Of a DNA stretch of 64,000 nucleotides, positions 48,635 through 51,638 are shown piece by piece. The stretch's first letter is position 1. Each line of letters starts with the position of its first letter. A program made the position numbers and the translations under genes. The notes under the pieces were generated by a model. The model searched no databases and was not told the DNA's origin. It saw nothing but the letters and a program-made list of their open reading frames with translations. The DNA comes from Dehalobacterium formicoaceticum (GTDB taxonomy: Bacteria; Bacillota; Dehalobacteriia; Dehalobacteriales; Dehalobacteriaceae). Location: positions 2,610,501 to 2,674,500 of the forward strand of contig NZ_CP022121.1 in assembly GCF_002224645.1 (NCBI RefSeq), read 5' to 3'.

Positions 48635-48694
48635 CCATTGGAAAGACCGCAATTACAGACTTTCACCATCAGTAACGTGCCACGCCCGGCATGC

Positions 48695-48730
48695 AAAAAG
48701 TTAGGGCAAAACCCACTTTTGCCCTAACTT
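48695..48730 (-). terminator. Terminator after the ABC-F gene (minus strand)
   Basis: A perfect 14-bp stem AAGTTAGGGCAAAA / TTTTGCCCTAACTT with a 5-base loop; on the minus strand the T-run continues to TTTTTGC. Confidence 0.88.
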
Positions 48731-48748
48731 AAATAACTTAAATAACTT

Positions 48749-50401
48749 CTATAACACCAGCATTCCTTTGAGCCGCTTTAATTCAGTCAAAATAGCACAA
48801 TATTCTTTATCAAGCTCTTCAACATTATCTTTTTTAGCAGGCATGGAAATTCTGCCAATCACTTCCGTCAGGCGATTCTGAAGAACGAAGATTTCTTCCT
48901 CGATTTCTTCTTTAACCCTGTTGCCCCCTTTATTTTGCTGTGCCAGATAGTCTTCATAGCTATCTTTGAATACTTTGATCTTGTTCTTTTCAATGTTCAT
49001 GATCTGATTGGCTACGGAGCTAATGAAGCGACGATCGTGGGAAACAAACAGCAGGGAGTTCTCGTAGTTTTTCAGAACCTCCTCAATGACCTCCATAGCG
49101 TTGATATCAAGGTAATTGGTCGGTTCATCTAGAATCAACAAATTAAGGTCCTGACAGAGAATCTTGGCAAAGGAAGCCTTTACCCGCTCCCCTCCGCTCA
49201 GCACATTCACTTTCTTATAGACTGCATCTCCTTTAAAGAGCAGCCGAGCCAGCAATAATCTTGCATAGCTCTCCTCATGGATGCTTTCTTTTATCACATT
49301 GGTTAAGATACTGGCGTCTTCCTCTAAGATCCTTAAGTCTTGACTAAAGTAGCCGATTTTGGCGCTGGGAGTAATCTTGATAGACTCTTCCCGATTGACG
49401 ATCATTTTGAGCAGGGTACTCTTTCCGCACCCATTAGGTCCGATCAAAGCCACTCTGGCCTTATTTTCAATACGGAACTCCGCATTTTGGAAGATCACTT
49501 TATCTTCAAAGGCTTTGTTGAGCTGCTTACCTTCGATAATAACCTTACTGTGAAGTTTCTTGGCATCAGTGATATCCAGCTTGATCCTCTCGTCTTTTTT
49601 AGGTTTTTCCTTAACTTCCAGCTGCTCGATTCTCGTCTCCACGCTTTTTTGGGCTCGGTTAAGGTTAGCTTTAGCTTTTTGATTCCCCATCTTATGGAGC
49701 CTGGACTCAGAATCCCCCATGCGCCGGGGAGTTTTGCGGATCGATTTTGATTTTTCACTAGTCTCGATTACGACTCTCTCCAGCCGCTTTTTCTCTGAAA
49801 CGTATTGATCATATTCGATCCGGACTTTTTTTTTCTCTCTCGCCTTCTGTTCACAAAAGCTGCTATAATTGCCCGGATAAAATTTAATCCGGCCATCTTC
49901 TAATTCCAAGATCTTATTGCATAGACCATCCAGGAGGGTACGGTCGTGGGAAACGAGGAATAATCCGCCGAAATACCCCGCAAAGTAGCGCTCAATCAGT
50001 TCAATTCCTGCCATATCCAAATTACTGGTGGGTTCATCGGCAAAGATCATGGCGCTGTTTTGGCTAAAGCAAGATGCCAGCTTAAAGCGTGTTTTTTCCC
50101 CGCCGCTCATGCTCTCGCTATAGATCATAGGAATGTTAAATTTCGATGCCCTTTCCTCGCTGATCAGTTCAAGTTCAGGTGGTTCCAGCTGGGAAACTGT
50201 GGAAGGTTGGCCATAGACTTTCACCCATCCTTCGTCAGGTGCAAGCTTCTGACTGAGAAGGTTGAGCAAGGTGGTTTTACCCACTCCATTAATACCAACA
50301 ATACCGATTCTGTCTTCGGAGTAAATGCTAAATTTCTTGATATCCAGGATCAGCCGGTCTCCGAAATATTTTTTTACATTGCCGCATTCAACTAATAAAA
50401 T
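48749..50401 (-). CDS. ABC-F protein (probable ribosomal protection factor), ATT start
   Basis: The ~550-residue protein has two ABC cassettes and no membrane domain: Walker A GINGVGKTTLL and GPNGCGKSTLL, signatures MSGGEKTRF and LSGGERVKASF, Walker B IFADEPTSNLD and LILDEPTNYLD. An inter-domain linker of ~100 charged residues is visible, as in antibiotic-resistance ABC-F factors. The first in-frame ATG (50284) falls inside the first Walker A. The family N-terminus (VKKYFGDRLILDIKKFSIY) is encoded upstream and begins at ATT 50399-50401, 6 bases after GGAGGGG. ATT as start is inference; no ATG, GTG or TTG fits in frame. Confidence 0.85.
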   Translation of the reverse strand: MLLVECGNVKKYFGDRLILDIKKFSIYSEDRIGIVGINGVGKTTLLNLLSQKLAPDEGWVKVYGQPSTVSQLEPPELELISEERASKFNIPMIYSESMSGGEKTRFKLASCFSQNSAMIFADEPTSNLDMAGIELIERYFAGYFGGLFLVSHDRTLLDGLCNKILELEDGRIKFYPGNYSSFCEQKAREKKKVRIEYDQYVSEKKRLERVVIETSEKSKSIRKTPRRMGDSESRLHKMGNQKAKANLNRAQKSVETRIEQLEVKEKPKKDERIKLDITDAKKLHSKVIIEGKQLNKAFEDKVIFQNAEFRIENKARVALIGPNGCGKSTLLKMIVNREESIKITPSAKIGYFSQDLRILEEDASILTNVIKESIHEESYARLLLARLLFKGDAVYKKVNVLSGGERVKASFAKILCQDLNLLILDEPTNYLDINAMEVIEEVLKNYENSLLFVSHDRRFISSVANQIMNIEKNKIKVFKDSYEDYLAQQNKGGNRVKEEIEEEIFVLQNRLTEVIGRISMPAKKDNVEELDKEYCAILTELKRLKGMLVL

Positions 50402-50431
50402 AAAAAACCCCTCCTAGCGATACCGGAGAGG
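50402..50431 (-). promoter_or_regulatory. Terminator/SD-sequestering attenuator before the ABC-F gene
   Basis: On the minus strand CCTCTCC (50425-50431) pairs with the ribosome site GGAGGGG (50408-50414), followed by six Ts and then the ATT start. The same hairpin would therefore terminate the RNA and hide the ribosome site. Confidence 0.72.
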
Positions 50432-50571
50432 ATAGTGTCATTTCAGATTACAACACAATAAACTGTAATTCTACTTATGTTTCGAGACACATTTCGGTCA
50501 TAAGCATTTTAGAATATACAGTAAGGTGCAGTTGTATGAAAAGCTATCCACAGAGAATAATCACTATCCAC

Positions 50572-50682
50572 TCACAGATAAAAATGCATAGATTGCAAAG
50601 CCGTTACCACGGCTTTCTTAAAAGCATATTTCCTTGTTAAGTGAATTAACCAATCATTTTCTGCAGATACCTTACCTTTCAT
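50572..50682 (-). CDS. Candidate 36-residue leader peptide in the ABC-F leader
   Basis: An ATG frame starting MKGKVSAEN and ending HFYL then TGA lies inside the leader. The hairpin AAAGCCGT-GGTA-ACGGCTTT (50597-50616) falls within it. There is no clear Shine-Dalgarno site, so translation is uncertain. If translated, ribosome stalling here could change folding of the downstream terminator. Confidence 0.35.
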   Translation of the reverse strand: MKGKVSAENDWLIHLTRKYAFKKAVVTALQSMHFYL

Positions 50683-50714
50683 CAAATTGGGTTAGTCGAA
50701 GACTTCTCTTTAAT

Positions 50715-50743
50715 ATTATAAAGTCGTTACCACCCGTTGTCAA
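50715..50743 (-). promoter_or_regulatory. Consensus sigma-A promoter of the ABC-F gene
   Basis: On the minus strand TTGACA - 17 bases - TATAAT, a perfect match. The start would be near 50708, giving a leader of about 305 bases. Confidence 0.82.
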
Positions 50744-50825: not shown

Positions 50826-51590
50826 TTACTCATTCATCCCCGTATAGATAAAGACTGCATCTCTAAGGAATTCCGCGGCTCCCGGCTGTCTTTCATCATA
50901 ATAGGCTGTAAATCTCGGATCATCCACATACATCTGAGCCAGCCCGCCATGATTCTCCTTAGAGTAACTTGGCCAGGAGTATGCGAGCCATTGGCGATGG
51001 AGATCGGCCGTTTTTTGAGCCAGCTCCCCGGCAGGATCTCCGGTCTTGAAGGCTTCACAAAGGGTGTCCAGCACTTCTTCACCAAGCCTGGTGAACTCAT
51101 CGTACTGCTCCTTGGTCATGTTCATAAGTTTCCGGTTGGATTCCTCGACGGTCTTTTCTCCATACCTTTCCCGAATTTCCTCACCGTATTTGGCTTCATT
51201 TTCCTCAATTAACTTACGTTTAAATCCTTCAAATTTTTCTTTGTCGGACATAGTGATTCTCCCTTCTTTTTGAGCAATGGTTTTTTCAACATTTTCAATG
51301 AGTTGCTCCAATTGCGCTCTTTTTTCCAGAAGCTTAACACGGTGTTCCCTTAGTGCCTTGGCTCCATCAAAATCAGGAGAGGTTACAATATCTTTAATTC
51401 CCTCCAAACTCATGCCCAACTCCCTGTAAAATAAAATTTGCTGCAGACGGTCAACTTCTTGTTGTCCATAGATCAGATATCCTGAAGAAGAAATTCTAGC
51501 CGGTTTAAGAATCCCGATCTCATCATAGTATCTAAGAGTTCGCGAGCTGACTCCTGCCAAATGAGCCAATTTTTGCACTGTGTATTCCAT
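50826..51590 (-). CDS. MerR-family regulator with TipAS antibiotic-recognition domain
   Basis: The ~254-residue regulator has an N-terminal MerR winged helix (YTVQKLAHLAGVSSRTLRYYDEIGILKPARISSSGY), a coiled coil (residues ~75-115) and a C-terminal TipAS domain (YSKENHGGLAQMYVDDPRF ... GAAEFLRDAVFIYTG), which binds thiopeptides and other drugs in relatives. ATG 51590 has a near-perfect AGGAGGTGATC. It lies just upstream of, and co-oriented with, the ABC-F gene. It could sense an antibiotic, though the ABC-F gene has its own promoter. Confidence 0.9.
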   Translation of the reverse strand: MEYTVQKLAHLAGVSSRTLRYYDEIGILKPARISSSGYLIYGQQEVDRLQQILFYRELGMSLEGIKDIVTSPDFDGAKALREHRVKLLEKRAQLEQLIENVEKTIAQKEGRITMSDKEKFEGFKRKLIEENEAKYGEEIRERYGEKTVEESNRKLMNMTKEQYDEFTRLGEEVLDTLCEAFKTGDPAGELAQKTADLHRQWLAYSWPSYSKENHGGLAQMYVDDPRFTAYYDERQPGAAEFLRDAVFIYTGMNE

Positions 51591-51607
51591 GTGATCACCT
51601 CCTGACA

Positions 51608-51638
51608 AGATTAAGAATACACCTTAACGCCACGTCAA
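51608..51638 (-). promoter_or_regulatory. MerR-type promoter with 19-bp spacer
   Basis: On the minus strand TTGACG (51633-51638) - 19 bases - TAATCT (51608-51613). The spacer contains GGCGTTAAGGTG as part of an imperfect dyad. The long spacer is the hallmark of promoters activated by MerR proteins through DNA twisting. Confidence 0.6.

Follow-up and report, generated by a model that had tools for sequence, protein, structure and literature searches.

How is a gene expressed when its reading frame opens at ATT and its ribosome-binding site is built into a terminator-like hairpin that runs directly into this codon? This question is raised by an ABC-F gene in the window, i.e., the whole stretch of 64,000 nucleotides of Dehalobacterium formicoaceticum DNA (contig NZ_CP022121.1) that was analysed. 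We consider it very probable that the explanation, taken as a whole and with a restraining role of the AUU included, is a cplR/vmlR-like attenuator, worked by ribosome stalling and placed before an ABC-F ribosomal-protection gene. The features of the locus are collected in Table 1.

Table 1. Features of the ABC-F gene and its leader (positions in the window).
Feature	Position	Strand	Basis
Sigma-A type promoter, TTGACA-17-TATAAT	50715..50743	(-)	12/12 consensus match
5' leader RNA, ~306 nt	50402..50708	(-)	Fold z-score; motifs conserved across 46 aligned leaders
Putative anti-antiterminator outer helix P1, 5' arm GGTATCTGCAG	50661..50671	(-)	Pairing in aligned leaders
Leader ORF (uORF), three codons, ATG ATT GGT TAA (Met-Ile-Gly-stop)	50646..50657	(-)	Position conserved
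Putative anti-antiterminator inner helix P2, 5' arm ATTCACT	50640..50646	(-)	Pairing in 46 leaders
P2 3' arm AGTGGAT, overlaps antiterminator	50566..50572	(-)	Aligned leaders
Putative antiterminator, 5' element GGATAGTG	50562..50569	(-)	Pairs with CACTATCC
P1 3' arm CTGTGGATAGC	50543..50553	(-)	Pairing in aligned leaders
Putative antiterminator, 3' element CACTATCC, continuing into terminator 5' arm	50430..50437	(-)	Aligned leaders
Terminator/SD-sequestering hairpin CCTCTCC...GGAGGGG	50408..50431	(-)	Folding; SD pairing conserved
Shine-Dalgarno (SD) AGGAGG of the ABC-F gene, within hairpin 3' arm	50410..50415	(-)	Sequence; homologue pairing
T6 tract of terminator	50402..50407	(-)	Sequence
ATT start codon	50399..50401	(-)	No alternative start; N-terminus alignment
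ABC-F ATPase, 550 aa, ribosomal-protection-like, CplR/Vga relative	48749..50401	(-)	Profile scores

The ABC-F gene and its ATT start codon

The protein scores 516.7 bits against the NCBIfam model for ribosomal-protection-like ABC-F proteins (NF000355, cut-off 380). Its best-scoring model is that of CplR (NF043038), yet the 618.6 bits obtained lie below the cut-off of 780, so that it is a relative of CplR and not CplR proper. The closest solved relative is VgaA (7nhl), with query residues 3-544 placed on chain residues 4-520. The frame is intact and includes the signature and DEPT motifs as well as both Walker motifs, and relatives at 76-84% identity are intact as well and also begin with ATT. 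The gene is likely an antibiotic resistance gene. A search of plasmids returned Vga relatives at about 40% and, besides these, just one record, from Acetoanaerobium, at 55% and with an ATG start. The entry NZ_CP154629.1, labelled as a non-mobilizable Acetoanaerobium plasmid, has 2.6 Mb and four listed features and looks like a mislabelled chromosome.

AUU is a very rare start codon, and the initial annotation had left room for an in-frame start further upstream. This is excluded, since an in-frame TAG lies five codons 5' of the ATT, with no ATG, GTG or TTG in between. No canonical in-frame codon follows the ATT until codon 40, a GTG that lies within Walker A; gene finders limited to ATG/GTG/TTG would cut the protein there, so that such resistance genes can be overlooked or taken for truncated. 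In about 100 homologues, the conserved N-terminus M/I-LLVEC is aligned with the ATT, and the differences in codons 2-13 after it are distributed over the three codon positions as 43/13/77, an excess at the third position which indicates that this stretch is translated. Of 100 homologues whose start region is intact, 63 have ATG at the aligned start, 20 have TTG and 17 have ATT, and none has ATA, ATC, CTG or GUG. In a maximum-likelihood tree, 16 of the 17 ATT genes fall within one clade of 21 (support 99) that includes several Bacillota lineages, and the conservation of ATT in homologues, a point raised by the initial annotation, is borne out. The simplest history has ATT gained once and lost to ATG three times, with a second, independent gain in Peptostreptococcus (L123/L035). 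Judged by these alignments, ATT is conserved as the only possible start of the gene. The infC gene of the same genome (L111, G000 2831279-2831779) also has an apparent ATT start, behind GGAGGTG, as have the infC genes of several relatives, which makes AUU initiation plausible in this host; IF3 genes elsewhere are known for an ATT start behind a strong SD.

Directly upstream of the ABC-F gene lies a gene for a MerR-type regulator with a TipAS drug-binding domain (50826-51608, (-)), which is also found upstream of the ABC-F gene at three other loci (L085, L086 and L170) with a DNA identity of 81-91%. The segment holding both genes is 83-91% DNA-identical to that of genomes of another family (G415/G377), compared with just 71-72% for infC, which suggests a horizontal transfer of the pair, possibly as a two-gene cassette. 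At two of the loci (L085:511-1197 (-) and L086:532-1087 (-)), the TipAS gene and the ABC-F leader are separated by an additional gene with coiled-coil-like repeats in tandem (DVGSMKGDISALQK), whose reading frame differs between these genomes. Directly 3' of the ABC-F stop codon there is a strong hairpin with a T run (48690-48735, (-), TTAGGGCAAAAGTGGGTTTTGCCCTAACTTTTT), so that the ABC-F gene is probably transcribed alone.

The leader and its alternative pairings

The consensus promoter and the leader of about 305 bases described initially are both present. Transcription is expected to start at about 50708, and most close homologues also have a 12/12 promoter at a comparable distance. The whole leader folds at -97.9 kcal/mol (z -4.6), a value equalled by none of 100 shuffles, and its terminal 71 nt at -16.8 kcal/mol (z -2.1). 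The hairpin pairs CCTCTCC (50431-50425) with GGAGGGG (50414-50408) on the minus strand, and AGGAGG lies 8 nt from the ATT, which confirms the earlier description of an SD in the 3' arm and of a T-tract running into the start codon. Of 99 homologues, 95 have the SD paired inside the hairpin, whether the start is ATG, TTG or ATT; hence, the overlap is a family rule and not special to the D. formicoaceticum locus. In eight homologues, a TTG start directly continues the T-tract (TTTTTG), giving a tighter overlap of start and U-tract. The leader hairpin escaped a generic terminator scan, probably because of the scan's loop limit of 8, and so the proof of the hairpin rests on conservation. The genome holds no second copy of the hairpin, and no Rfam family reached its gathering threshold within the window; a weak full-length match to ncr1575 whose end coincides with the start codon (24 bits against a cut-off of 60, E 0.2) was treated as chance.

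Nearly all homologues have a three-codon ORF, M-x-x-stop, in the corresponding position, which encodes MIG in the window and MRN, MRK, MKI, MRI and others in relatives. Two further leader-peptide candidates, a 36-aa ORF from 50682 and MLLRKPW-stop, were dropped because the conserved ORF uses another frame. Across 46 aligned leaders, the order of conserved elements is GAAAGG..AAGG, the M-x-x-stop ORF, ATTCACT (50646-50640), GAGTGGATAGTG (50573-50562), CTGTGGATAGC (50553-50543), CACTATCCTCTCC, the hairpin and the start. Alignment and folding support three mutually exclusive structures for this leader, namely a predicted anti-antiterminator (P1 and P2), a predicted antiterminator and the terminator. 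In the 46 leaders, P1 has 79% standard pairs, versus 22-52% when slid, and nine pairs with double changes, and P2 has 95%, versus 30-65% when slid. The antiterminator GGATAGTG/CACTATCC reaches 95%, with 27 double-change cells, and the terminator 90%, both above their slid controls. The antiterminator can be extended across the terminator arm as GAG/CTC, and its closing pair flips between A-T and G-C in step (about six of seven independent comparisons agree and none contradict this, p about 0.03).

The P1 5' arm takes in the end of the uORF SD region (AAGG, 50673-50670), and the P2 5' arm is one that a ribosome stalled on the uORF would cover. When the uORF region was made unpairable in silico, the antiterminator probability in the window rose from 0.00 to 0.44 in equilibrium folds, and in seven homologues it exceeded 0.9, reaching 0.99. 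Three of the tested leaders (L017, L018 and L003) do not switch in this way at equilibrium, and the SD is often still partly paired in the simulated stalled state.

Proposed mechanism and possible role of the AUU codon

In the absence of a drug, ribosomes would complete the three-codon uORF, and the anti-antiterminator would form and occupy GGATAGTG, leaving the terminal hairpin free to form. This hairpin would end the transcript at the start codon, and in any read-through RNA it would cover the SD. A drug that stalls the ribosome at or just after uORF initiation would keep ATTCACT and the P1 5' arm covered, whereupon GAGTGGATAGTG would be released and pair with CACTATCCTCTC, breaking the terminator and freeing the SD. 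Translation would then begin at the AUU, a weak codon aided by a strong SD, with the yield held down. Since the leader has the same parts as that of C. difficile cplR, we infer that it works in the same way; termination, stalling and the probable drug class (pleuromutilin, lincosamide, streptogramin A) are assigned by this homology.

As to why the codon should be AUU, infC, on which IF3 acts, provides a model for an AUU that is sensitive to initiation factors. We weakly favour the view that the AUU might be a third brake on expression. As a regulatory element within the U-tract it could respond to initiation factors, so that the yield would depend jointly on stalling by the drug, on termination and on proofreading of the start codon, a proposal that we put forward tentatively. 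In C. difficile cplR, opening the stem led to constitutive expression at more than ten times the induced level (PMC10201436), and so tight control seems to matter. It is also conceivable, if doubtful, that AUU is kept for the sake of transcription, as the start lies inside the terminator U-tract and AUU leaves this tract free of G (UUUUUUAUUUUAUUA). This would fit with non-AUG starts being always ATT (or TTG) and never ATA, ATC or CTG, with ATT and TTG starts lying at most 6 nt past the last stem G while ATG mostly lies at least 7 nt away (about nine of 12 independent AUG/non-AUG pairs agree and none oppose, p about 0.004), and with the greater number of Ts in the 12 nt that follow the stem (9.9 for ATT versus 8.5 for ATG). 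However, the TTG relatives have a G at about tract position 8, so that a G is tolerated there, and their short spacer follows partly from the two Ts of TTG itself; the comparison of ATT with ATG alone comprises five independent pairs (p 0.125). Termination is, moreover, dispensable for drug control in C. difficile, where this control persists through SD sequestration alone once the poly-U tract is broken (PMC10201436). A neutral origin, with a strong SD that suffices, a low yield that is tolerated and a codon that drifts, is possible to a similar, limited degree: AUG has been regained at least three times inside the ATT clade (L087, L145 and L093/L094/L098), but drift should also yield AUA, AUC, CUG or GUG, which the 100 homologues lack, and the ATT persists to about 60% protein identity.

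Two further explanations would do away with the attenuator or with the gene itself. The hairpin could be a plain terminator of transcription from the upstream TipAS gene, with the ABC-F gene controlled by the TipAS regulator, as the TipAS gene upstream on the same strand here, and the one upstream at three other loci, might indicate. This is very unlikely, given that a 12/12 promoter whose 17-bp spacer is normal lies between the two genes and that the other homologues keep the same leader with no TipAS gene in the flanks examined. Still less probable is a decaying gene that has lost its ATG: the first 39 codons have no canonical start, but the frame and its motifs are intact, the close relatives are intact with ATT and the leader is conserved. 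The start position, the ATT clade and the third-position pattern together exclude both decay and an assembly error for practical purposes. We retain the ribosome-stalling attenuator, with the AUU as its tentative third brake.

Comparison with known attenuators and AUU-initiated genes

Initiation at AUU is known for infC, pcnB and the cvfC1 gene of S. aureus (PMC9410913, PMC13009471). In S. aureus, AUU gave about 10% of the yield of AUG (PMC13009471), which fits the reading of AUU as a translation brake. The ABC-F gene shares the AUU start with these genes and the strong SD with cvfC1, and its yield would likewise be reduced. In the literature searched, mostly outside subscription journals, we found no AUU-started resistance gene, no ABC-F gene with AUU and no AUU inside a terminator U-tract. 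The locus would add a phylogenetically conserved AUU start beyond the few known genes, and what a weak start codon does can be tested directly on the natural changes between AUU and AUG inside one clade. The locus would also extend the range of the cplR-type switch far outside the clostridia where it was studied, with the terminator, ribosome site and start codon fused as a family rule.

The initial annotation had likened the locus to vmlR and msr-type genes. The outline of a leader opened by drug-stalled ribosomes holds, whereas the much closer cplR went unnamed and the uORF, anti-antiterminator and antiterminator were missed. The vmlR leader of B. subtilis (Takada et al. 2022, PMC9226507) likewise has a uORF in an anti-antiterminator, an antiterminator, a terminator and SD sequestration, but uses separate hairpins for termination (SL-3) and for covering the SD (SL-4), while in the window one hairpin would serve for both. 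With the C. difficile cplR leader, the window shares the three-codon uORF, the terminator stem that sequesters the SD and the poly-U tract, and the structural features of a cplR-type leader are found, with the three-codon uORF, an SD-containing terminator hairpin directly before the start codon and a mutually exclusive anti-antiterminator/antiterminator pair. The proteins are about 45% identical. The uORF peptide MIG does not fit the cplR-type consensus MR[I/M], to which the C. difficile MRI belongs (Obana et al. 2023, PMC10201436), and the presumed Clostridioides relatives have an ATG start, a leader of ~212 nt and the uORF MRI, in contrast to ATT, ~306 nt and MIG here. In C. difficile, mutation of the uORF start abolished induction (PMC10201436), the transcript ends at the start codon, and transcription and translation attenuation act together. 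The same architecture is present here, and sequence, conservation and the cplR experiments (PMC10201436) point to a single structure controlling both transcription and translation, as had been proposed. In summary, the attenuator logic is already known from C. difficile cplR, and the part that looks new is the conserved AUU start inside the attenuator.
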